DNA from: Hypoxylon rubiginosum
Taxonomy: Eukaryota > Ascomycota > Sordariomycetes > Xylariales > Hypoxylaceae
Assembly (NCBI GenBank): GCA_902806565.1
Contig: CADCXA010000066.1
Coordinates: forward strand, 992,001 to 1,056,000
DNA length: 64,000 nt
Direction: 5' to 3'
The position numbers and the translations under genes are program-made. The first letter of the stretch is position 1. Each line of letters opens with the position of its first letter. The notes beneath the pieces are model-generated. The model was not told the DNA's origin. It searched no databases and saw only the letters and a list, made by a program, of their open reading frames with translations. Positions 48,088 to 64,000 of the stretch are shown in pieces.

Positions 48088-48883
48088 CTAGGTGGTCTTG
48101 TCCTTGTTGTGGTAGTTGACGCTGTCGTTCCAGCTGTTCCGATCAGATTCTGTTAGCACGTCTCCATTTTCCTTTTCCCTTTTCTTCCTCTCCAACCGCG
48201 GGATATTATATAACTCGGACGGGGGAAAGGGGTGAAGGCACACGTACAACAGGGTCTTGTCTCCGTCGCCCCAGGGGAAGTTCTTGGTGCGGATGTTCTG
48301 GAAGGGGTACTCGACGCGCTCCTCTAGCGGGGGCATGTGGGACCAGTGCTCCCAGTGCTGGCTCCACAGGTTGTAGGCGTTGACGCCGGCGAGGATGAGG
48401 CAGGGGACGACGCCGCTGTGGTTTTGCGGTATTTTGTTAGCCTCTCTGTCTGTTCATTTTTCATTCTTTTCGATGCTTGAATCATAGATCCATTCCCAAT
48501 CGAATAATCGCGCCCGAATTGATAAAGTCTTCTCCATGTCATATCGTGCCTCGCTTTCGAATTGGCGGAATTCTTCACTCGTTGCTGGATCGGGTCAAGG
48601 GAATTGGGGGGAAGGCTTCTTACTAGATGGAGATCTTGCGCCAGAGCTCTGCAAAGAATGTTAGTAAGCCCAATCCGCCTACCCGTGTAAATCAGGGAAT
48701 TGAGCAAGGCTCACCAGTCGTGGCAGCAGCGTGGTCCTTGACGGCCTGGCGCTCTTTGATGAAGGCATTCTCGGTCGAGGCGAAGCGGCGCTGGAGGGTG
48801 GAGCGGAAGACGGGGTTGTTGGCGGCACGCAGCTGGGCCGTCAATCGCGGCGTCGCGCGGACGAGTTGTCGCTGAAACACCAT
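48088..48883 (-). CDS. COX13: Cytochrome c oxidase subunit VIa (COX13)
   Basis: The predicted 135-aa protein is a nuclear-encoded subunit of respiratory complex IV in the inner mitochondrial membrane. Four exons, 48883-48715, 48648-48624, 48415-48248 and 48133-48088, are joined by introns of 66, 208 and 114 bp. Exon 2 is only 25 bp. The first part, rich in Arg/Gln/Ala and lacking acids up to about residue 33, is a mitochondrial presequence. The ELWRKISIY join precedes a single membrane span (YGVVPCLILAGVNAYNLW). The family signature HWEHWSHMPPLEERVEYP and RTKNFPWGDGDKTLFW follows. In the last intron GCTAAC is the branch, so the AG just after it was rejected in favour of the one 18 nt on. COX13 adjacent to APN2 is a well-known flank of the MAT locus. 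Confidence 0.95.
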
Positions 48884-49503: not shown

Positions 49504-51554
49504 ATGGGTGTGCGCATCACCTCGTGGAATGGTACGTAGTGCTCCCAAACATCTACATGTAATGCTACATCTCACTAATATCATATATAGTAAACGGCAT
49601 TCGGTAAGATATCATGCCTAGTACACCATGAACAGCTTCTAACCGAATCTCGTAGAAATCCCTTTGGGTACCAACCATGGAGGGAGAAGAGGACTTTCGA
49701 GGCCATGTTCGATATCCTCGAGGCCGACATAGTCGTCATGCAGGAAACTAAGATCCAACGCAAGGACCTGCAGGATGACATGGTGTTGGTGCCGGGATGG
49801 GATGTCTACTTTAGCCTTCCTAAACACAAGAAAGGTATGCAACAGATCCAAGCCGCCTTACCATTCATGGCCTATCTTAACAATGGCTATAGGCTATGCC
49901 GGCGTAGCAATATACACCCGGAACTCGGTGTGTATGCCGATCAGGGCGGAAGAGGGAATTGTCGGAGTTTTAAGTCCGCCAAACTCTTCAACTCAATTCC
50001 GAGACCTTCCTCAAGACCAGCAAATAGGAGGTTATCCAAAGCCTGGCCAACTCGCGGGTCTAGTTGACGACGTAACTCTTGACTCAGAGGGACGCTGCGT
50101 CATCCTCGAGTTCCCGGCCTTTGTCCTAATTGGGACATACAGTCCAGCAAATAGCGATGGGACCCGAGACGATTTCCGACTGGGCTATCTCGACGCGCTA
50201 GATGTTCGAATCCGCAACCTCATAGCCATGGGCAAGAGAGTCGTTCTGACAGGTGATCTCAATGTAATCAGATCTCCTGTTGACACTTGCAACCTTGTCG
50301 ACCGGCTGAAGAAAGAAGGAATGACGGTCAATGACTTTTTCTCCACGCCATGCCGCCGTCTCTTCAACCAGCTCGTATTTGAGGGAGAAGTGCTGGACCC
50401 GAGAGACGAGAATAGAGAGAAGCCGGCATTGTGGGACCTTGGTCGACTCTTTCATCCTAATCGCGAGGGCATGTTCACCTGCTGGGATACCAAGAGGAAC
50501 ACGCGCCCTGCCAATAACGGCAGTCGGATCGACTACGTGCTGTGCAGTGATAACATGAAAGAGTGGTTCACCGACTCAAATATCCAGGAAGGTCTAATGG
50601 GTTCTGATCACTGTCCGGTCTTTGCTACCCTAAAGGACGTCGTTACAGTCGACGGGAAGGACGTGCATATCAGGGATATTATGAATCCGCCTGGAGTGTA
50701 TAGAGATGGTGCTCGGCTCAGAGACTGGACGGTCAAAGACCTGCTGCCGTCATCGGCAAAGCTTATTCCAGAGTTTGACCGCCGTCGGAGCATCAAGGAT
50801 ATGTTCTCTAGAAAGCCCACAGCTTCGAAGTCGACACCGCCAGTACCAACCAGCCAGCCCTCAGAGAGTCCCAGTAAAGGTTTGACCAAAATCGAGTCAT
50901 CGATAGATGAAAAACAGGCCGAGGCTCCAGCGTCGCAATCCGAATCCGTAACATCAGCACCTTCTCCTGCGAAATCATCCCGTGTTCTTAAGCGTACACC
51001 TTCCAGTACCGCGTCAACCAGCAGACCACAGAAGAAGACGAAGGCAGCGTTAGCCAAAGAGCCTTCCTCCAAGGGCCAAAGCAGTCTGATGGGTTTCTTC
51101 AAACCCAAGACCACGGCGAGCCCGAGTACCAATCCTGATATAAAGGAGGACCCTGAACCAATCGGCGGACTCGACGGCACGTCAGATATTCAATTTCCCA
51201 CAGAATCAAACGATGAGAATGACCCGAAAGATGCGTCCGAAGCGACTAGTTCAGAAATGGTGTTTGACCCTATCCAAAATAAGGAATCCTGGTCTAAGAT
51301 ACTAGGCAAGAGGGTCATGCCTAAATGCGAGCACGGGGAGGATTGTATCAGCCTGGTAACAAAGAAGCAGGGCATCAACAGAGGCAAGTTATCTTAATCA
51401 TACCCGATGTGATATGCTAACCTTCCTTTTAGGTAGATCATTCTTCCTCTGCCCCCGGCCACTTGGGCCATCGGGTGAAAAGGAAAGGGGAACAGAGTGG
51501 CGCTGCGGAACATTTATATGGAGTAGCGACTGGAGCGGATCGCAAACAGAGTGA
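49504..51554 (+). CDS. APN2: AP endonuclease 2 (APN2/APE2)
   Basis: The predicted 610-aa class II AP endonuclease cuts abasic sites and trims 3' blocks in base-excision repair. Five exons are 49504-49531, 49591-49603, 49656-49834, 49893-51383 and 51433-51554. Exon 2 is a 13-bp microexon; together exons 1-3 read MGVRITSWNVNGIRNPFGYQ. Active-site blocks of the endonuclease/phosphatase fold are QETKI, GTYSPANSDG, GDLNVIRSP and GSDHCPVF. A PCNA-binding box, QSSLMGFF, lies at residues 469-476. A zf-GRF finger begins near Cys552 and is completed only by the last exon (FFLCPRPLG...EWRCGTFIWS). The last intron starts with GCAAGT, the standard GC-AG donor, giving INRGRSFF; a GTTATC donor with a shifted acceptor would also stay in frame but gives Lys for the conserved Arg. 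Its neighbour on the left is COX13 and on the right the HMG array, as at MAT loci. Confidence 0.95.
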
Positions 51555-52714: not shown

Positions 52715-53274
52715 GTCATTGATGAGGTCGATGATATAACTGCAGGGCAGCGTCTAACCAGCATCGTCCATCGCGCCGCTTACTTGCAAGAGCTTCTGGC
52801 CGATGTACCAAGAGAGCGCATGCACGCTTCTAAGAAGCTTGATAGAACTGACAGAAACACGGACGCTGGTAGCTCTGTTAAAATCTACTTCACTGACGGA
52901 ACCACCCACGAATGCGATATCCTCATTAGTGACGACGGTATTCATAGCGCCGTTCGAAAAATCATCCTTGGTAATGGCCCTGCGGCCTCGCCTAGGAACA
53001 CGGGCATGTGGCTTGTCATGACCCTTCAGCCCTACGCGGAAGCCCAAGCTAGCACCGACAATGGACTCGTGAATTCCGAAGATGCTCGCGAATACTCGTG
53101 GATTCAAGCCGGGGCACGGGCGTCATCCTGACGGGAAACGGGGAACAGACAGGTCTTGAGTTGAAGAAATCGGGCACGCTGCTGCGAAGATGGGATTTCA
53201 TTCTGGATATCGACATGGAAAAGCATCGCGATGAAGCTGTAAGGGCGATGGACGCTGAGTTGGCAATAGTGTAG
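52715..53274 (+). pseudogene. FAD-dependent monooxygenase relic
   Basis: This stretch encodes a recognisable middle part of a salicylate-hydroxylase-like FAD monooxygenase: RLTSIVHRAAYLQELLADVP, then YFTDGTTHECDILISDDGIH, then PRNTGMWLVMTLQPYAEAQA. The expected GADGIHS nucleotide-binding motif reads SDDGIHS, so a conserved Gly-Ala is lost. The frame ends soon after EYSWIQAG. A second frame continues with LLRRWDFILDIDMEKHRDEA, like the C-terminal part of this family, up to TAG at 53272-53274. The N-terminal FAD-binding GxGxxG region is absent. It is therefore a truncated, frame-shifted remnant between APN2 and the HMG array. The family call is moderate and the pseudogene call strong. Confidence 0.65.
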
Positions 53275-53522: not shown

Positions 53523-55675
53523 CTACTTGTATATTTGTCCCTGCCAAATGTTACCCATATCGTAGTTGCCGAAATCGAGGTCGGCCAGGGGTTGAGAGTC
53601 GCTCATCTGGAAGCCCGGCAATTCGTACTGCTCGATGTTGCTATCACCCTGCCCGTTTTGAGTCAGGCCTTGGAATGGGTAAGCCATGTTGTCGAAATAG
53701 CCGTTGCCGATGGGGTTGAACGGCTGGTACTCTATGGGACCTGGATGTTCTGGTGCTGCCGGGATCGACCCAGACAAGTTATCCGGAAAGTCCTGTGTGC
53801 TGGCATTCCCCGATTGCTGCTCTGCGGGAGTTCGTTGCTCTTCGGGAGCCGGCGACGTACTAAAGAGGAAGTCTGATAGTCTGGAGCCTCCCAGTCGATG
53901 GGCCGTAGGGTCGTACTGTTCTTCTGCAGCCGGGGTCGAACCGAAGAGCTCTTCCGTAGAGCCTTGTGCGTTGGCGTCTTCTGGCTGGTGCTCTTCAACC
54001 GTCACGTCTAACCAGGCCATGGAATTGTCGTTGCTGTCGTCGGAAAGACCGCTGTCTAGTTGCTCGTGGCTAGTGCTATGGTCATGGACAGATTCCTGAG
54101 CGGCCGGCTGCTCATCAACGGGCTGCTCATCAACAGGTTGCTCGTGAACAGAAGAAGTCGGAACAGAAGAGGTCGGAACAGAAGAGGTCGGAATAGAAAG
54201 GGTTGGAATAGAAGGGCCTGGAATAGAAGGCTCTGATATCTGGGTCTGCTCAAGGGAGGGTGCTACAACTTGCATAGGAGCAGTCGTCAGTACTGCTCTC
54301 TGTGATACTGGCGCTGACTGCTCCTGACTAGTCTTGGGAGCCTTTCGAGACTGGTCGGACACAGTAGCCTTTCTCTTATTCCGGCCCGACGTTCTCGGAC
54401 CTGCGAGAATGGTGCCATAGAGCTCTGGCGCATTGTACTTCTCGAAACCCAGAGGATGGCCCTCTGGGACAGGATGGACAATGTTGAGATTGTTGCTCGC
54501 AAGGAATTGGTGGTATTCCCGAACCAAGTCGTCCATATTGAGAAACCCCGGAATATTGACCTCTGTAATACGCGCCTTTTTGACCTTGGGCTGAACGTTG
54601 CCAGCGTCGCGTTTGCCCTTCTTGCCCTTCTTCCTCTCTGGTCCATATTTGTACCAAGGATATGCCTTTTTGTGCAATGTCTCTTCCTCCTTTGCCTTGT
54701 CATCAAAAAACTTCTGTTGGATGAGCGGCAAGCGACATTTCCACTGGTCGCCGAGGATTTTGGCTGTTGAAAGGGGAGGTATGTTAGCAAACCTACGTGG
54801 CGGTAATGAAGGATATTTCTTTTCACGTACACATGTAACCATTGGGGACTGTCAGGCCCAAGTGTTCGATCCTCTTTGCAATCTCCTGATGGTGTACGGA
54901 TCTATAAAGGATGAAGTTGTTTCTGCTGCGTGGAAGCTGACTCCAGTGAAAGTTTTTTGGCCATTCCGCCGGGGCTACCTAGTCCCTCGGAGGTCCGCGG
55001 CCTTCTGGCTTACTGATCGCCTCTGCACCACATCGTTCTCCATCGGGGACTGGAGAATCGTTGTAGCTGTTGCAGCTAACATTTGAACTGCTAGAACCGT
55101 GCCGAACTGACAGAGTAGTGGCAGGAGAAGAAGAAGAGCCTATGACGGACGGAGACATCGTAGATAGAGACATCGTAGATGGAGACATCGTAGATGGAGA
55201 CATCGTAGATGGAGACATCGTAGACGGAGTCTGACTAGTACGGAGCGTCCCGGGCGTTGGATAATTATGGGTGGGTTGATTATCCACAAAGAGACCCATC
55301 ATCGGTTCTCCCGAGTAAAGGCAGGCTTCTATCCTGAGTTCAGGATGGTGAATGAGGATGTCTTGGACCACGCCTAGGATAATCCGGTCCGGGTGCGTAT
55401 TGTCAAGAAGAATCTGAATACACTTCCCACCAGATTGATGACTGCAAAACTCATTAGACATGTAATAGCTCGCGTAATAGAGAGGTGACTAGGTAAATGT
55501 AGGATTTATCGTTATATGGCGGGATAACTTACGTCGCTCCCTCAATGATTGCAGCCTTGCAATTAGGTAGATAGACATTCCAGACCGAAGCTGGGAAGGT
55601 CATCATGACGCCGGGTCCCTCGATACCAGATGACTGGCTCAAGCCGCTGGTGACACTTGACTGGTAGGATGCCAT
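53523..55675 (-). CDS. MAT-type HMG-box factor, copy A (in-frame TAG)
   Basis: This is a mating-type-like HMG-box transcription-factor gene. Exons are 55675-55533, 55441-54831 and 54763-53523, with introns of 91 and 67 bp, summing to 665 codons. The start MASYQ is shared with copies B and C. An N-terminal domain (IQILLDNTHPDR...LGVVQDIL) precedes five 15-bp repeats encoding STMSP. Codon 202 is TAG (54979-54981), yet the same frame continues into FHWSQLPRSRNNFILYR and the HMG box (about 218-295). The box contains the intron inside a Ser codon typical of MAT HMG genes, followed by GDQWK and YPWYKY. A conserved post-box block (IPGFLNMDDLVREYHQFL), a basic NKRKA segment and Pro/Glu/Gln-rich repeats lead to an acidic aromatic C-terminus. 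Apart from the TAG there is no defect. MAT1-2-1-like identity is likely; MAT1-1-3-like cannot be excluded. Confidence 0.8.
54979..54981 (-). other. Conserved in-frame TAG, copy A
   Basis: TAG follows GGA-CCT-CCG-AGG-GAC and precedes GTA-GCC-CCG in the same reading frame as the HMG box. The identical GACTAGGTA context occurs in copies B (58445-58447) and C (61340-61342). It lies between GC-rich arms that could pair. It may be a true stop, a recoded codon, or lie in an unrecognised intron. Confidence 0.85.
55151..55225 (+). repeat. 15-bp tandem repeat (five units) in copy A
   Basis: Five units of GGAGACATCGTAGAT, with two single-base variants, run in tandem. On the coding strand they encode repeated S-T-M-S-P pentads. 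They are absent from copies B and C, so they arose after duplication. Confidence 0.85.
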
Positions 55676-57090
55676 GATCGTCACTTGATTCGTGAATGAG
55701 ATATAGCGCGTCGACGATGTCTAGTGGAGGCTGCGAGTCAGTATGTGGAGAGGGTAAGATGAAGATACGGAGAGTTATGGGAGGGGACTTACGTACTATA
55801 TCCCGACAGGCGAAGGGCAATAAATTGAATGAGGAGAGGTGAAAATAGCGCGTCTATTTGGAGGCAAAGCTTGAAGTAGAAATATTTGCTGCGGCGCTGG
55901 TCAAAGTTGGTGCAAGTCCTTGTTGTAGTGGGAAGGATTTGCAGTTGGAAGGATGTTGTAGTGAGAAGGAAAGAAAGAAAATTTGTTGTCGGAGAATGGG
56001 TTCCTAGGGTATATTTATATGGGAGGGGGGAATATCTTTTGGTAGGACCTGCTTATCAGGTTAGTGATAGTTGCTGGGGACATTCAAGAGATATCGTACT
56101 AGTGCCGTTGCCGGTGTCTGATGTTGATGTTGATGTTGATGTTGACGACCTTTTCTAGTTATGGGACCTAGCTTCCGAGTGTCCTATCTTGCCCTCCCTC
56201 TTACTTGGCTTCACGAGGATTATTCCGTAGTCCACAGGGACGTCGTATTGTGAGTAGGGTGGGTGGTATTCTCGTGCTACTTCCTCTACGTGTCTTGCCA
56301 GGATAGTTCTCGTCTTGGAGGTAAACAGGTCTCTCGCCTCACTTCTTGAATTCAGTAAAGTTCATATTGTCGTCATATTGGATTGAATATAGCCAAATCT
56401 CAATACATCTGTAGACACTCCGTATTTCGCGATTCATAACTGATCGGCTATATTAGCCTCTGAAACTTCTTACACTTAGACGATAGATGATCCCCGTGAT
56501 CTAAGAGTTCACCAAACATAAAAAACCGAGCAATTAAGATGAATTCAAATATCAAAGAAGCAGGTAATTCAGGAAGAAGAGTCTTATAACTACTTAATTT
56601 GTTGAGGCACGAAAGTCTCAATCCGTGGAGTGCTTGTCCAGATCAACCGCATCTAAAAGATACCAAAAGTATCAATCCTTCAAAAGGTCCACCCGTATGA
56701 GTGCAGTATATTCCCACAATATGAGTATTATCCATCAATTTGGATCCTCCAACACGTCCAGCGAGGTATGCGAAGTATTCGGTGCGAAAGGGAGCAAGCG
56801 AATCTGCTATGAGGAAGATCCCCTCGAGTTGTAGATGTAAGAGGGGAGCGCCCTGCTGACTTTGTATAAAGGGGCCGTTCATATCCTGTCTTGAGATAGA
56901 GGTAGGTAGAGTGTGTGGGGTTTCTCCCCCCGGAAGTTGCCTTTTCGTCAGCGAGCGAAGATGGGGGAGAGGAAAGCGTTATTGAAATGTAAGGTATGTT
57001 GGTCTAGGCGATAGATAGAAGACGAAACCTCCAAGCTCAACCCATAGCCAAGGTGGCGACGCCGGAGCTAACATCCGCTCAATATCAACT
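55676..57090. other. Spacer between HMG copies A and B
   Basis: This 1.4-kb spacer contains the leader and promoter of copy A and the 3' region of copy B. It carries a GATGTT microsatellite at 56120-56146. Segments near 56,443-56,475 and 56,573-56,595 resemble the spacers near 59,789 and 62,591, and near 59,914 and 62,719. No further gene was recognised. Confidence 0.5.
56120..56146 (+). repeat. GATGTT microsatellite
   Basis: Four tandem GATGTT hexamers followed by GAC lie about 450 bp upstream of the copy A start codon. The other copies carry different simple repeats in the equivalent region. Confidence 0.7.
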
Positions 57091-59158
57091 CTATTCTTGA
57101 CTCGTAGGATCCTTCCCAAATAGCACCCCTGGGTCTAAGTCGGCTAAACCATCTTCTGACATAGAGGGACCGTCGAACAGAAAGTCTCCATAGCGCTGCC
57201 CATCCAAAGGCTGGTTCCAGGATGGCTCAAATTGGTTGGAACCGACATTTCCATCAGGATAGGATGGTTGGGATTCCGCGAGCGGTTGGCGTTCGACCGC
57301 AGGTTGGTGATCAGCAGAGGCCAGTTCTGATTCTACTATGGGGGCGAGACCGTCCGTGGAGCTTCCTGTGCTAGCATCTCGTGGCTGTTGCTGCTGACCT
57401 CGAAACTGGTCCCAGAAAGAAAGCAGGTTGTTGTTGTTGTTGGTCTCAATGTTGCCAGTCTCGATGTTGCTAGTCTCGATGTTACTGGTCCCGGTGTCGC
57501 TGCTCTCGGTATCGCTGCTTTCGATGTCGCTGGTCTTAGTGTTGCTAGTGGCGATGTCCCTGGCAGGTTGCTCATTTGTAATGGATTGTTCAAGGACAAC
57601 AGACTGCTCATTGACAGGCTGCTCATTGACTCTGGTCTCTTGGTTGAAGACAGGCTGCCCTTGCTGCTCGCGACGAAACAACTGCTCGTTTATAACTGGC
57701 TCATAGTCGACTACAGATTGCTCGTCGGCAGAAAACTCCTCGTTGAAAATTTCCTCGTTGAAAGGCTGTTCACTAGGGGAAGACTGCTCGTCGATGACAG
57801 GTGCGGATATCTCGGGAGATCTCTGTGCTATGCTCGGTGACTCATTCTGGAGAGTCTTCTGGGCCTTCCGGGGCTCATCAAGAGTGGTAGCCTTCCTCTT
57901 CCTCCCGGCTTCATACAGGATACTTGCGTAGAGCGTAGGGACGTTGTACTGATGAAGGCCCTCGGGGTGGTTCTCTGGGACAGGATATATAATGTTGAGC
58001 CTGTTTCTTCTCAGAAACTCATGGTACTCTATAATCAAGTCCTCCATTTTCAAGTAGCCCGGGAGGTTTAGGTCTGAAATTTTCGGCTTCTTAACGTCGG
58101 TCTTTCTAGCTAAGTATTTGTACCATGGATAGGTCTTCCGGTGCAGAGTCTTCTCCTCTCGAGCCTTGTTGTAAAAGAACTCTTGCTGGATTTGAGGTAT
58201 GCGTTTCCACTGATCGCCAAGAATGGTAGCTATGGAGGAACTCGATGAGTAACCCTATATAGTAATAAGAAGAGATGTATCTTTATTTACAAACCGCTGG
58301 ATTCCCACTCATGACAACGTTTCCTAAGAGTTCTATTCTCTTCGTAACCTCGTGACAATGTATTGCCCGATAGAGAATAAAGGCATTTCTGGTTTGCGGA
58401 AGGAGACTCCAGTCAAACCCTTCTGGCCATCCCGCCGGGGGTACCTAGTCCACCGGAGGTCCGCGGCCTTTGGGTCGACTGGTTGTCATGATACCGCCCT
58501 TCTGATTACCTCTAGTGGTAGCAGTGGCGTTTCCGTTGGGGATGGGCAAGTCGCTGTAGCTTCTGAGACAGCCACTGGTATTAGAAGCACTGGAGCTGAC
58601 ACTGCTGTGACGAGTGTCGAAGGTATCCTCGTGAGAAGCAGATATGCCCCGCTGAACAAATCGGGGGGTCATCGGAGAGTCATGCCTCATAATTGTACTC
58701 GGCATCACAACGGGAGCCTGAGCTGTGTAGGGAGATTGCGCCATGGGAGTTGACATAGGGAAGCTACCGAGGCTGGGAGTATGATAGCCAAAGTTCGGCT
58801 GGTTAGGGACAAGACCTAACATTGGTTGACCCATACATAGACGAGCTTCAAGGTGGAGATGGTGGTTATTACTGAGAATATCAGCAACCACGCCCAGGAC
58901 GACTCGGTCCTGGTTCGAACTGTCGATAAGAACCTCTACCCTCCTGCCAGGGGCCATTTGACTGTAAGCCCAGTTAGCACATACCTGCTCACATTTTTCG
59001 AGAGTAGGGATAACACAAACTCACCTCGCTGCGCTGAGTACTCCGGTTTTGAAATCTTGTGAGGAACTGAACCATTCCGAGGCCTGGAATGACATCAGGA
59101 CGCCAGGTAATTGGCTGATAGAGGGGGCACCAGCAGTGCCAAACTGGTAAGAGGCCAT
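57091..59158 (-). CDS. MAT-type HMG-box factor, copy B (in-frame TAG)
   Basis: This is the second copy of the mating-type-like HMG gene. Exons are 59158-59025, 58961-58291 and 58229-57091, with introns of 63 bp (branch GCTAAC) and 61 bp, totalling 648 codons. It starts MASYQFGTAG; the first join gives SAASQMAPGRR, and VEVLIDSSNQDRVVLGVVAD aligns with copy A. Codon 217 is TAG in the GACTAGGTA context, and the frame continues into GFDWSLLPQTRNAFILYR. The HMG box is split within Ser (T|CT) before TILGDQWK and ends YPWYKY. The LPGYLKMEDLIIEYHEFLRR block and RKRKA segment follow. The long C-terminal part is built from N/D-E-Q-P/S repeats and T-S-N/D-I-E-T/S repeats, ending LADLDPGVLFGKD. No other stop interrupts it, so this and copy A are the candidates for function. 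Confidence 0.8.
58445..58447 (-). other. Conserved in-frame TAG, copy B
   Basis: This is the same TAG in the same frame and context as in copies A and C. Forty-three of 47 bases centred on it are identical between copies A and B. Confidence 0.85.
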
Positions 59159-60070
59159 GATTCCAGATGTTGCACAGAAGACGTAGATGTTCAGTTTTGT
59201 CTAACGAGGGACGAAGTTTAGTATTTTCGCGTACTGGATATCTTGTAGGGAGAGATATGGGCTTATGAGAGATGGGTTCATAAGAAGCGGAGATACGTGA
59301 GACGTGAGAGACGTGAGAGACACGAGAGACGCGAGAGGGTGAGCACGCGAGAGCGATAGAGCAGGGGAGACGTGACAGTGATGGAGCGGCGGGGAGGCGT
59401 AAATGGTAAGACGTATCGGGAGATGGGGAGGACGTACGGTGGATGTTGACCAAGTTCTGAGAAGAGAAGTGTAGAAAATGGTTGAGTTTGGATGTGTGTT
59501 TAAAGTGGAGGTGGAAGAGTAGCAAAGGTTTTATAAAGGTTAGAAATTTAAAGAAATATTTAGTCCTAGGATTTGTTATAATGAGGAAGGGCCAGAAATT
59601 AATTGAGGAGGAAGAATACTCGTATATGGAAGGCAGGAAGCTACCTGCCTACTGAATAAGACAATATTAGTTCAATAATAACACCGGTAGCGTTTCATCG
59701 AATTAACATATACCTACTACGTTTATTTTGCTATAATTCTAATTAAAGAACCCCTGAAATATTGGTTGTCTAGTATTTCACGATTTGAAGTAATCCGCTA
59801 TGTTAGCCGCTGAAGTTCTTAACACATGGCTACCAGAATTTAAGAGTTCATTAAATACCGGAAAGGGGGCAGATGAAAGTAAGTTACATATTGAGTCAAA
59901 ACTCATTTATGAAGAAGAGTCTTACAGCCACTCAATATAGGTACGCAAGTATATTTGGTACTTGTCAAAGCTTCCTGAAACAGAGCTAGAGGTTTTCCCG
60001 ATCTAGTGTGTCGCTAATATCAAACGCTCAAAACACAAAGTCCACGAGCATCTCCTCGCCGTCAATTCAA
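59159..60070. other. Spacer between HMG copies B and C
   Basis: This spacer holds the leader of copy B with a GAGACGTGA minisatellite and the 3' region of copy C. The segments around 59,789 (CCGCTATGTTAGCCGCTGA) and 59,914 (GAAGAAGAGTCTTACA) have counterparts in the other spacers. An open frame at 58989-59525 includes the copy B first exon but its upstream part is not conserved. Confidence 0.5.
59290..59352 (+). repeat. 9-bp minisatellite in copy B leader
   Basis: Degenerate tandem units related to GAGACGTGA/GAGACGCGA occur about 130-195 bp upstream of the copy B ATG. They have no clear counterpart of the same sequence in other copies. Confidence 0.6.
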
Positions 60071-61973
60071 CTATTGACTTGTCGAATCCTCCCCAAAGAG
60101 CTTCTGGAAGTCGAGCGTATCATCATACAGCAAGGAGGAACTGTTGTACTGGATGCCGCCTAGGCCCTGTTCGTCGGAAGGCTGGAATGAGAATGACTCT
60201 GTTAGGTCGAGGCTGCCATTTCCATAAGAAGGAAATGGCTGGAGATCCTCCGACGGTTGGTACACAGCTGGGACCTCTTCTGCACCTGCTGAATGGCCGG
60301 GCTCGTCCATGGAGCCTGTTGTGCCGACATCTTCTGATCGGTATTGTTGGACCTTGAACTGATCCCAGAAAGACAGCATGGCATTGTTGGATGGAGCTTT
60401 GTTAGGTTCGGTGCTGCTAGCGACTGTGTCGTTGACGGCATGCTCGTTCATAACAGGTTGCTCGTTTGTGACGGGTTGCTCTGGAATAGTAGGCTGTTGA
60501 TTAACGACAGGTAATGGGTTAATGGCAGGTTGTTGGTTGGTTATAGGCGGTTGGTCGGGGAAAGCCTGCTCTTCCTGTTCGAGGGAGGACTGCTCGCTGC
60601 AGGAAGTTTGCTCGCTGATGGTGGGAGATTCTTCCCCACGATGCTGTATATCCTGGCTTGGAAGAGCGGGTGCTTCTTCAGTTCTCTGTGCCGTGGCCGG
60701 TGATTCGTCCCGACGAGTCTTCTGTGCCTTTCGGGGTCCATGGGAGCCGGTAGAGCGTCTCTTCCTTCCGGATTCACACAGCCTGGCTTCACATAGTATA
60801 CTCCCGTAGAGATTAGGGGCGTTATACTGATGCAGGCCTTTGACATCATCTTCTGAGACATGATGGATTATATAGAGCTCATTGCTTCTCAAAAACTCAT
60901 GGTACTCCCTAGCCAGGTCTTCCATATTCAGGTATCCGGGAAGACTTTGACTTTTCTGGGAACCGCGCTTCTTGACGGGCGTCTCGTCGGTACTCTTTAC
61001 CGCCAAGTATTTATCCCAGGGGTAGGTTCTCTTGTGAAGCATCTCCTCCTCTTCAGCCTTATCCTCGAAGAATTGTTTCTGGATAAGAGGTATGTGATCG
61101 CTTCATTGGTCACCGAGAAACTTGGCTATAGAAAATCTTAGTGGGCAAACTTATAGGTATATAGTAATAGAAGACATGTATCTTCACTTACAGGGCAGTC
61201 CAGGCAGCATAGCCTTTTCCAGGTGCTCCATTCTTTTAGCAAATTCCTTGTGGTGCAACGCCCTGTATAGAAAAAATGGATTTTTGGTACGGGGGAGGTG
61301 ACTCCAGTTGAAACCTTCCGGTATTCCTTCCGGGGCTACCTAGTCCGCCGGAGGTTTACAGCCTTGGGTTTCACCGCTCTTCACTACCTTTTCTTGCCTA
61401 TTGCCTCTAGTAGCAACAGCGACGTTGCGGCCCATGATGGTAGTTGGCATCATGACAACAGGAGTCTGAGCCGTGGACGACGATTGTATTAGAGAAGGAG
61501 TTGACAGGATGGGGCGGCCTGAACTTGGAGTACGATAACCGTAATTCGGTTGGCCAGCGCTGACAAGACTCAACATAGGCTGTCCATCTTGTAAACAAGC
61601 CTCAATTCGGACGTGGTGGTTATTATTAAGGATATCGGTAACGACACCCAGGATGACCCAATTCTGGCTCGTGCTATCAAGAAGAACCTGCACTCCTCTG
61701 CCATGAGCCATGTGGCTATAAAACTAGTTAGCACATACATACCTACTCGTGTAATTCGAGAGTGGTAGGATTAGACCGAAGTGATACTATCGGGGATACC
61801 GTGGTACAGCACATCAAGAGTATGGTAGAAATAAAATAAACTGACCTTGCTACGCTGAAGACTCCGGTTTTGAAGTCTTGTGAGGATTGGAGCCATTCCA
61901 AGGCGTTGAATGACATGAGGGCGCCAGATAACTGTCTTGGGTCGCTAGGAGCACCAAACTAGTAGGAAGCCAT
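60071..61973 (-). pseudogene. MAT-type HMG-box gene, copy C, inactivated
   Basis: This third copy keeps the full architecture: exons 61973-61846, 61715-61192 and 61125-60071, introns 130 and 66 bp, 569 codons in all. Three in-frame stops break it. Codon 5 is TAG where copies A and B have CAG (MASYQ), a C-to-T change in a CpA context as RIP makes. Codon 168 is the TAG shared by the array. Codon 225 is TGA (61103-61105) at the HMG-box tryptophan that is TGG in A, B and D. The remaining frame, including FNWSHLPRTKNPFFLYRALH, LPGYLNMEDLAREYHEFLRS, GRKRRS and an EQP/NQQP-repeat tail ending LDFQKLFGEDSTSQ, is intact, so inactivation looks recent. A shorter protein from a downstream ATG would lack a complete box. 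Confidence 0.8.
61340..61342 (-). other. Conserved in-frame TAG, copy C
   Basis: TAG lies in the GGCGGACTAGGTAGCCCC context, the same position and frame as in copies A and B. The flanking sequence is more diverged than between A and B, but GACTAGGTA is unchanged. Confidence 0.8.
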
Positions 61974-62917
61974 GATACGAAACGTCTAGATATGTCTATC
62001 AAGGGACACGGATCAGTATTTATGTGTACGAAATAGATCGTGGGAGACGGATAAGGTCGCGAAAGGTAGAGATGTGAGTAATGAAGAGTGGAGGGACGAG
62101 CGTCGAGCGTTGAGCGTCGAGGGTAACGATTAGAAGAAGCGATGACGCGATGACGCGATAACACGACGATTCGACGAAGCGATGAAGCGATGAAGCGATG
62201 AATAAATGGAGAGGAGATAGATGAAGCAGTTGCGAGATGTAGAGGACGTACACTAGAAGCTGGCTGAAACCAAGGGTGTGTTGTAAGTTTGCAGAGACTA
62301 GAAGGTTGGAGACGCGTTGGGTCACAGGACTTGTTGCAATGCAGATGAGTTAGAAAGTAATGGAGGAGGAAGAGTATTCGTATGTAGAAGGCAGAAAGCT
62401 ATCTAGGTGTCTATATATTTTCGAAAGGTCCCACTTGTCAATGGGCGGGAGATAGTTGCTGGGCAGACTGCCAGAAAGACCACATGATGTCACCGGAGAG
62501 ATAACCTGAGATGTAGGCTTGGTAGGTCGTTCAGAAATGTTATTTATCTTATACAACGGCGTTAGCAAAGATTTCCAGTCGTTTAGCTTAGGTTAACCTG
62601 CCGTATAAGCTAGCCCCTGAGTCTCTAACAGTGGGAAGGAGTCGGCAGAACCCAAGACTCCATCAAAGATTAAAAATGCCTATTTGGTCAAACAATACTA
62701 TCTTAGGTATGTATTCACGAGGAAGAGTCTATAACCGCTTAATATTGTGAAATACGACGTTATCCTACAACGCTCTCAGCGGTTGTGATCCTAAACTAAT
62801 ACTAAAGTATAGAACACCTAGAAGAGAGGCAAGGCCCACCAGAGCAAGCAATAGTTTGAATTTTCATCTTAGCCAAGAGTTGGGCTGTTAAACCGTAAAT
62901 CGTCAAAATTGGCCTGA
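61974..62917. other. Spacer between HMG copies C and D
   Basis: This spacer contains the leader of copy C with a GCGATGA-type minisatellite and the 3' region of the copy D remnant. Blocks near 62,591 and 62,719 (GAGGAAGAGTCTATAACC) match the other spacers. No gene was recognised. Confidence 0.5.
62136..62202 (+). repeat. GCGATGA minisatellite in copy C leader
   Basis: Tandem units GAAGCGAT and GACGCGAT, eight to nine bases each, occur 160-230 bp upstream of the copy C start. This again differs from the repeats of the other copies. Confidence 0.65.
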
Positions 62918-64000
62918 TTAACGTCGATGGCGATTGGCGTTGATGGGGCCGAGGTCAAAGTTGAAGTTGTTGATGTCGACCTCACCCCCAAAATAGAACA
63001 GGTTGTTATTATTGATATCTTGGCTAGTAAGGGCCTGAGGCTGGAGTAACTCTTCCCTTTTGTAGCTAACGTTGTTTTCGGGGTTGAGTGGTTACAGAAA
63101 CATCAGTCCTCCTTGTCCTTGTCGGGCTTGTTGTTCCTGTGCTTGCTGAATTCGATGGTCTTGGACTCGCTGGACTTCAAGTGCTGCGGTCGGAGCAGGA
63201 GACCCGAATATGGTGCCATCCTCAAAACTGGATCGGGCGACTGACTATAGAAGGATGCCCGGCTGTGGTAGGGTTAACGGCTGTACCAGAAATGACAGCA
63301 GGTTGCTAGTTGTTACTAGTTGCTGGTGTTTAGATCTGCTCTTGGTGAGGTTGTCCAACCTGTCTTTGAGGCGGTGTGAAGGATGCTGTTTGCGCAGCCG
63401 CCGCCACCGCAGCTTGAGGCGATTGGTTCTGATGGGTCTTTTGAGCCTTTTGACTCTGATGTAGGCTGGGTCGCTTTCTCTTCTTTCGCTCGATCTCGGT
63501 GGGATCAACGAGAATCGTGCTATAGTATTCGGGGACGTCATACTGAGAAAGGCTCTCTGGAGCGTCTGCCGGAATGGGGTACATAATGGAGAGACCGTTA
63601 CTTCGAAGAAACTGATGGTACTCTCGCATTAAATCTCCCATATTGTGGTAACCAGGGAGTTTCATCTCCGAAATGCGCACTTTCTTAACCTTGGCGTTAT
63701 CCTCGTCGTCGTCGGCAGCATTGTCCTTATTCTTGGCGGGTTCGTATTTATACCACGGATACGCCTCGCGATGGAGTCTTTCTTCTTCAGTGGCCATTCG
63801 ATCAAAGAATTCCTTCTGAACAGCTGGCATGCGATGTTTCCACTGGTCACCGGCAATCTTAGCTATCGGAGTGGTTAGTTGGTAGGTAGATCCATATAGC
63901 GAAGTTTCTTATCACTCACAGATTAGGCCGGTGGATGATCGTGGCTTTCCCAGATGTTCCAATCGCTTTACGACCTCATGGTATATCACAGACCGATACA
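62918..64000 (-). pseudogene. MAT-type HMG-box gene, copy D, partial and degraded
   Basis: The fourth copy runs off the right edge. The exon ending at 63920 encodes the middle of an HMG box (YRSVIYHEVVKRLEHLG). A 57-bp intron with branch ACTAAC splits the same Ser codon, and the next exon (from 63862) gives SKIAGDQWKHRMPAVQKEFF and YPWYKYEPAK, then LPGYHNMGDLMREYHQFLRS and the RKKRKR segment. The frame stops at TAA 63330-63332. The same frame then reads on through TAG with coding-like sequence, shifts by one base near FEDGTIFGSP, meets another TAA (63092-63094), and continues to a final stop at 62918. The stops fall in Gln-rich context, suggesting CAA/CAG changed to TAA/TAG. The region before the box, including the shared TAG site, is outside the window. 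Confidence 0.75.

Follow-up and report, generated by a model that had tools for sequence, protein, structure and literature searches.

A tandem array of MAT1-2-type HMG-box genes in Hypoxylon rubiginosum carries a conserved in-frame UAG that sexual-stage RNA editing may recode

Fungal sex is governed by mating-type (MAT) genes, master switches that are generally assumed to act straight from genotype; the usual flanks of the MAT locus are APN2 and SLA2. Arbuscular mycorrhizal fungi have expanded sets of MATA-HMG genes, which are dispersed. In Pezizomycotina, MAT1-2-1 is a single-copy gene, and its hallmarks are an HMG box, an intron across a serine codon of that box, and a place between APN2 and SLA2 (PMC3961304). 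In Hypomyces perniciosus, the available portion of the published account describes three MAT1-2-1 copies on three scaffolds, reports that the MAT1-1 idiomorph was not found, and makes no mention of a stop in these copies (PMC6627653). Edited genes of the PUK1 type in Fusarium and Neurospora carry an in-frame UAG in a conserved protein, within a predicted hairpin loop, and their annotation models evade the stop; false introns around the UAG are described for 69 edited genes (PMC4817773).

The Hypoxylon rubiginosum locus described here shows all three MAT1-2-1 features, HMG box, serine-codon intron and APN2-SLA2 location, but holds five copies in tandem rather than one, with an in-frame TAG before the box. 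Like H. perniciosus it has several copies; unlike it, these form a single tandem array within the APN2-SLA2 interval, and copies g1 to g4 carry the TAG. As in arbuscular mycorrhizal fungi, mating-type-like HMG genes are multiplied, although here they lie in tandem within a bounded ascomycete MAT locus. The likeness to PUK1-type genes extends to the in-frame UAG, the predicted loop, and the evasive annotation models. In contrast to those genes, the one here regulates mating type, each of its arrayed paralogues has a cassette of its own, and its editing is a proposal.

The array between APN2 and SLA2

The window, that is, the whole 64,000-nucleotide stretch analyzed, contains the left MAT flank, which a sequence-only reading had named and which profile searches confirm: a COX13 (cytochrome c oxidase VIa) exon (48091..48453, minus strand; PF02046 (COX6A), 103.7 bits) and the main open frame of APN2 (49733..51397, plus strand; PF03372 (Exo_endo_phos), 47.7 bits). 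Following the contig rightwards, as that reading had envisaged, reaches SLA2 and adds the rest of g4 and a fifth copy, g5. Because the contig continues past the window to SLA2, we can count five HMG-box gene copies in the APN2-SLA2 interval, all in tandem on one strand. Beyond the window edge lie 786 more bases of g4, then the degraded g5, and then SLA2, the right flank (I_LWEQ, 172.2 bits, C66:1060793-1061170), which is the single match in the genome by profile search.

Copy g1 (53523..55675, minus strand; exons 55675-55533, 55441-54831, and 54763-53523) has 664 codons, and g2 (57091..59158, minus strand; exons 59158-59025, 58961-58291, and 58229-57091) has 647. Each contains one internal TAG, apart from which they are the sole copies with both halves intact. 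Copy g3 (60071..61973, minus strand; exons 61973-61846, 61715-61192, and 61125-60071) carries the conserved TAG plus two private stops (TAG at codon 5 and TGA at codon 225), and is probably a pseudogene. The window includes the box of g4 and the block after it (63330..64000, minus strand); beyond the edge lie its start codon (at L009 786), the whole of exon 1, the larger part of exon 2, and the conserved TAG (L009 71-73), and its reading frame breaks down past codon 424. Copy g5 is a relic.

The sequence-only reading had counted at least four same-strand HMG paralogues, which is borne out: g1 to g4 have in common their start, an N-terminal domain, both intron positions, and a conserved block after the HMG box. 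The MASYQ start that it gave to all of them is found in g1 and g2, while g3 has MASY-stop and g4 has MESYQ. Neither the N-terminal domain nor the block after the box matches a Pfam family above its cut-off. On joined exons downstream of the TAG, the box scores 30.4 (g2), 27.4 (g1), and 28.4 bits (g4) against PF00505 (cut-off 25.4; g3 was left out of this scoring). It also shows constraint at the protein level, with pN of 0.21-0.31 versus pS of 0.71-1.03 across six pairs. The phase-1 intron inside a serine codon of the box (TCT or TCC), likewise noticed earlier, is present in all of g1 to g4. HMG intron number and position are variable in Pezizomycetes (PMC13152902).

By its APN2 and SLA2 flanks and its serine-codon intron, the locus is a MAT locus with a MAT1-2-type idiomorph whose HMG gene has multiplied in tandem. 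The earlier suggestion of an expansion at the MAT locus thus stands, whereas the picture of four working genes does not, given the stop before the box. When 419 residues of the g2 protein were used to query the genome, with scoring confined to the best candidates, 13 matches came up, 12 of them inside the APN2-SLA2 interval; the 13th is an HMG gene on contig C27 (28.3 bits). No second HMG array was found elsewhere among the scored candidates, and searches with PF04769 and an alpha-box sequence of N. crassa, run without a positive control genome, gave no alpha-box gene.

A conserved in-frame TAG before the HMG box

In four of four copies, g1 to g4, an in-frame TAG occupies the same homologous position and separates the N-terminal domain from the HMG box. 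It is codon 202 in g1 (54979..54981), codon 217 in g2 (58445..58447), and codon 168 in g3 (61340..61342), all on the minus strand. Frame and sequence are kept on either side, and 462 (g1) and 430 (g2) more open codons follow. Because this TAG precedes the box, no copy encodes an HMG protein from DNA alone. In the relic g5, a TGA occupies the matching site, its position set by eye. The TAG had gone unremarked in the sequence-only reading.

The neighborhood of the TAG is the most synonymously conserved part of these genes. Synonymous positions are identical at 32 of 38 sites within 6 codons of the TAG, compared with 499 of 1134 at more than 10 codons, and the neighborhood ranks first among 262 windows of 13 codons (column permutation, 0.0008). 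The similarity of the 44-base cassettes around it exceeds that of 200 of 200 shuffles in each of the six copy pairs.

These cassettes are predicted to fold as hairpins (g1, 54959..55002; g2, 58425..58468; g3, 61320..61363; all minus strand). The A of the UAG is predicted in the loop in all four copies, with probabilities of 0.67, 1.0, 1.0, and 0.68, and the loop reads CUAGRUA, with a U at -1 of the candidate A. The summed loop probability is 3.35, versus 1.55 in codon-preserving resamples, and only 2 of 300 resamples are as high. Copy by copy, the comparison with codon resamples gives 0.01 (g2), 0.07 (g3), 0.22 (g1), and 0.47 (g4), so that, taken singly, loop placement is clear in g2 only. Only 7 of 52 other TAG trinucleotides attain a loop probability of 0.67, but about 44 of 159 other sampled As (0.277) do so as well. 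Hairpin stability exceeds neither dinucleotide shuffles (z -0.52, -0.71, -0.44, and +0.04) nor codon resamples (0.18). Because the lowest-energy loops differ in size (7 bases in g4, 8 in g2, 4 in g1 and g3), g4 is the one copy for which the prediction itself gives an anticodon-like loop. Covariation analysis of the hairpin gave no information either way.

Nor is the array unique: at least three family members occur in Hypoxylon cercidicola and at least two in Hypoxylon texense. Trees indicate that the array is older than the split from H. cercidicola. In that species, the annotated protein P0005 ends in "..GHGPPAD", which is the same stop; P0006, ending in "..SSRD", probably stops at the same site, and the annotated model P0001 omits half of the HMG box. 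In the H. texense model P0007, the N-terminal domain leads straight on to the box and the stop block is missing, through either a deletion or an annotated intron.

RNA editing and the alternatives

We propose, with a probability of roughly 0.6, that the mating-type factor becomes complete through sexual-stage A-to-I editing, which would turn UAG into UGG (Trp). In vegetative cells, translation would halt at the UAG and yield a box-less protein of about 200 residues (201 in g1, 216 in g2, and 196 in g4). Once sexual development is under way, Ame1 would redirect the tRNA deaminase Tad2-Tad3 so that it deaminates the A of the UAG, in a hairpin loop whose sequence is reminiscent of an anticodon loop; the edited codon would then read as tryptophan, and the full HMG factor would be made. 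Since this change would complete the factor, RNA editing would switch on a mating-type regulator. The same stop precedes the box in an editing-like setting, and the regulator may therefore need its mRNA rewritten during sex. It is an even bet that in Hypoxylon species the HMG DNA-binding domain of the arrayed genes could not be made at all without A-to-I editing, in which case the editing machinery, and not MAT genotype alone, would set when and which factors exist.

The array shows an in-frame UAG with coding conserved on both sides, a predicted loop A, and a U at -1. The published editing preference is for U at -1, hairpin loops, and UAG to UGG changes (PMC11156358, PMC9600606). As a control, a kinase of the same genome reads CD-UAG-UGG-S, like the edited N. 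crassa PUK1 orthologue. RID, which reportedly undergoes editing in Fusarium, did not provide a further control. The genome has four DUF726 loci; at the two key positions, read by counting and without alignment, where Ame1 has the motif MV, the Ame1 candidate among them has GV and the others SL, AN, and AR.

The stop might instead lie inside an intron that is short or otherwise unusual and may be regulated by stage, with splicing fusing the N-terminal half to the box. This is unlikely, though g1 offers a donor (A/GTAAGC) that scores 3.3, equal to a real intron of g1, and acceptors in frame follow at 39 and 165 bases; the 165-base option would delete the first half of the box, resembling H. cercidicola model P0001, and the absence of the stop block from H. 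texense model P0007 points the same way. However, no donor-acceptor pair is common to g1 to g4, and no shared well-formed GT-AG intron removes the stop. The best listed donors of g1 to g4 score 3.3, 0.0, -1.0, and 0.5, versus 1.7-5.9 in eight real introns, and a CTRAY branch motif occurs in 1 of 32 candidates (the best 8 per copy; a 570-base one in g4), versus 6 of 8 real introns. The real introns of the array also drift faster than the cassettes: they beat every shuffle in 3 of 12 pairs, and between g1 and g4 they are no more alike than shuffles (z 0.1 and 0.0), against z 8.7 for the cassettes. A combined variant is possible, with editing plus alternative splicing of a stop-containing intron, for which FgBUD14 is the precedent (PMC11156358).

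Programmed readthrough, in which the UAG is passed at a low constant rate with the help of a conserved RNA element, would yield small amounts of HMG protein alongside abundant N-terminal fragment. A readthrough cassette would be equally expected to conserve the stop, its flanking codons, and the downstream frame, yet a UAG with G (or A) after it is not known as a favored readthrough context in fungi. Readthrough should also tolerate TAA or TGA, whereas TAG is kept in four of four readable copies at near-saturated synonymous divergence; we consider this explanation improbable. Least probable is a decayed, non-functional idiomorph, in which an ancestral stop was duplicated with the gene, or in which the N-terminal fragments alone have a role and the box is vestigial. 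Copies g3, g4, and g5 are visibly degenerating, and editing could hardly repair the private stops of g3 or restore its codon 5. Against decay stand the long open frames after the stop in g1 and g2, purifying selection in the box, the retention of three paralogue lineages in two species, and, in H. cercidicola, at least one copy whose protein ends at the same stop.

Timing and consequences of editing

If the editing reading is true, RNA editing would be placed upstream of the MAT master switch, not among its late targets. It would also raise the puzzle of how mating identity is set before fertilization when the factor reaches its full form in sexual tissue alone. Editing at the ascus stage would be late for a gene expected to fix mating identity before fertilization. 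In Fusarium, editing occurs chiefly in asci (PMC11087585).

Editing would also account for the garbled automatic annotation of Hypoxylon mating-type genes. The conserved UAG cassettes provide a natural multi-copy test set for recognition by the fungal editing machinery.

An array of HMG-box genes at the mating-type locus

The genome comprises 48.3 Mb in 70 contigs, and the window is C66:992001-1056000. The sequence-only reading had claimed at least four HMG-box paralogues here and taken APN2 and COX13 as markers of MAT. We find four copies on the reverse strand (g1 to g4) plus a degraded fifth (g5), with COX13 and APN2 on their left. The window's right edge falls inside the array. As read from the sequence, g4 is complete once adjoining bases are added, and g5 lies at about 1490-2880 of the adjoining stretch (L009), with frameshifts all along. 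The rightward extension proposed earlier passes the end of g4 and then g5 before it reaches SLA2; the I_LWEQ domain of SLA2 is the sole such match in the genome by profile search. Excerpts of PMC3961304 describe MAT as usually flanked by SLA2 and APN2. Because COX13 and APN2 lie on the left and SLA2 on the right, this interval is a standard MAT locus. A six-frame genome search with g2 (419 residues) returned, among the best candidates scored, 12 matches inside the interval and one weak match outside it, an HMG gene on contig C27. The array and its place at MAT are secure. Between APN2 and g1, open-frame pieces at 52715-53274 resemble, by eye, a FAD-dependent monooxygenase, and are probably a gene remnant.

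For exon limits, donors and acceptors were picked by reading and then checked by script. Copies g1 to g4 have two introns at matching places, as had been noticed from the sequence: one in the N-terminal part, the other in the HMG box, where it splits a serine codon in phase 1. This serine-codon intron is taken as confidence for MAT1-2-1 in excerpts of PMC3961304. With exons joined downstream of the TAG described below, the profile check suggested earlier places the HMG boxes of g2, g1, and g4 (30.4, 27.4, and 28.4 bits) above the Pfam cut-off of 25.4. The g1 and g2 models span 664 and 647 codons, respectively, and the frame of g4 is gone past codon 424. Besides the common TAG, g3 (60071-61973) has two private stops, a TAG at codon 5 and a TGA at codon 225; a TGA sits exactly at the Trp of GDQW in the other copies. 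These stops suggest a recent loss of function.

A conserved in-frame TAG

The codon alignment of g1 to g4 contains a single column with TAG in all four copies (54981-54979 in g1, 58447-58445 in g2, 61342-61340 in g3, and L009 73-71 in g4). It lies between two conserved blocks, '..GRGPPxD' before and '..PxGWPxGFDWxxLPRxRNxFILYR' after. Outside the TAG region, the copies have diverged strongly at synonymous sites (pS 0.53-1.03 across five other regions). Where two copies share an amino acid, the codon is also shared in 32 of 38 cases within 6 codons of the TAG and in 499 of 1134 cases at distances above 10 codons. For synonymous conservation, windows of 13, 17, and 21 codons on the TAG rank 1/262, 3/248, and 14/260 (permutation values 0.0008, 0.004, and 0.016). 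The ungapped 44-base segments round the TAG are identical between copies at 31-40 of 44 positions and exceed 200/200 shuffles in all 6 pairs, compared with 3 of 12 pairs for real introns. The HMG box is under purifying selection (pN 0.21-0.31). Thus, it seems that the RNA round the stop is kept, and the protein past it as well. None of these values corrects for the kinship between copies. There is good support for reading the UAG as a recoding site under maintenance and not as a sign of decay.

Passing the UAG

Excerpts of four papers (PMC11156358, PMC11087585, PMC9600606, PMC4817773) report that Sordariomycetes convert UAG to UGG through sexual-stage A-to-I editing (in F. graminearum, in PUK1 and 70 further such genes), which favours U at -1 and hairpin loops and runs via Tad2-Tad3 and Ame1. 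For the PUK1 orthologue of N. crassa, editing is described at a UAGUGG site. Scanning the kinases of this genome, we find one kinase domain (C24:815072-815362) that reads '..YDARCD-TAG-WSVGVILYECLYGHTPF..'; a conserved Trp immediately follows its in-frame TAG, giving the same UAGUGG motif, and the A lies in a predicted hairpin loop. This site is the best indication in our analysis that the fungus may use such editing. One of four DUF726 loci (C27:1500287-1500790) has GV, by residue counting, at the two positions that set Ame1 (MV) apart from its ancestors (KN), making it a candidate editing activator.

In g1 to g4, the A of the UAG always falls inside a predicted hairpin loop. By inspection, the loop core, CUAGRUA, resembles the anticodon loop of a tRNA bearing A at position 34, which Tad2-Tad3 naturally targets. 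In g4 alone, CUAGRUA makes up the entire lowest-energy loop (7 bases); the loop has 8 bases in g2 and 4 in g1 and g3, and the consensus fold leaves nine bases unpaired. The summed loop probability of this A is 3.35 versus 1.55 in codon-preserving resamples, with 2 of 300 as high (resampling values for single copies: g2 0.01, g3 0.07, g1 0.22, and g4 0.47). A loop probability of 0.67 is attained by 7 of the 52 further TAG trinucleotides in these genes and by a fraction of 0.277 of 159 other sampled As. Hairpin stability in g1 to g4 is not unusual against shuffles or codon resamples, and covariation is uninformative.

Splicing could instead excise the TAG, and only g1 has a fair donor (A|GTAAGC) with acceptors 39 and 165 bases downstream. 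The best donors in g2, g3, and g4 score 0.0, -1.0, and 0.5, compared with 1.7-5.9 for 8 real introns, 6 of which carry a CTRAY branch motif, and in-frame GT-AG intervals offer no solution common to g1 to g4. Among editing, splicing, and readthrough, we infer that editing is the best explanation of how the UAG is passed. Timing is a difficulty for editing. Because editing in Fusarium is mostly in asci (excerpts of PMC11087585), although Sordaria shows some already in protoperithecia (excerpts of PMC11156358), either editing is early here, or these genes do their work after fertilisation, or earlier stages are served by a minor unedited route.

Copies in related Hypoxylon species

Among named fungi, the closest relatives belong to Hypoxylon. 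Protein searches recovered family members in H. cercidicola (P0001, P0005, and P0006, apparently on one contig of 2,247,610) and H. texense (P0003 and P0007, apparently on one contig of 4,070,429). Trees of seven rows each were built for the two termini. The N-terminal tree pairs g1 with Hcerc_437800 (96/92) and g4 with Hcerc_455225 (98/98), and groups g2, g3, and Hcerc_455228 (100/99); the C-terminal tree pairs Hcerc_455228 with g3 (98/98) and P0002 with g2 (89/87). These groupings indicate that three copy lineages predate the species split.

P0005 ends in '..EGHGPPAD' where g1 to g4 have their stop. P0006 ends in '..ESSRD', probably at the same site; part of the block is absent from this protein, and its alignment in that stretch is uncertain. 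The P0001 model omits the first half of the box, and that of P0003 begins, by inspection, directly past the stop with its frame shifted. In P0007 (Hte_009279), the fold of the N-terminal domain (residues 21-100) is predicted fairly confidently (pLDDT about 84-89) as strand-helix-helix-strand-strand-helix-strand-strand; comparison of this domain with the PDB gave no convincing match. Here the N-terminal domain is joined to the box without the nine stop-bearing residues, whether by deletion or through an intron in the annotation. In both cases, this fusion supports the two halves being one protein, and P0007 may be a natural copy that has lost the stop.
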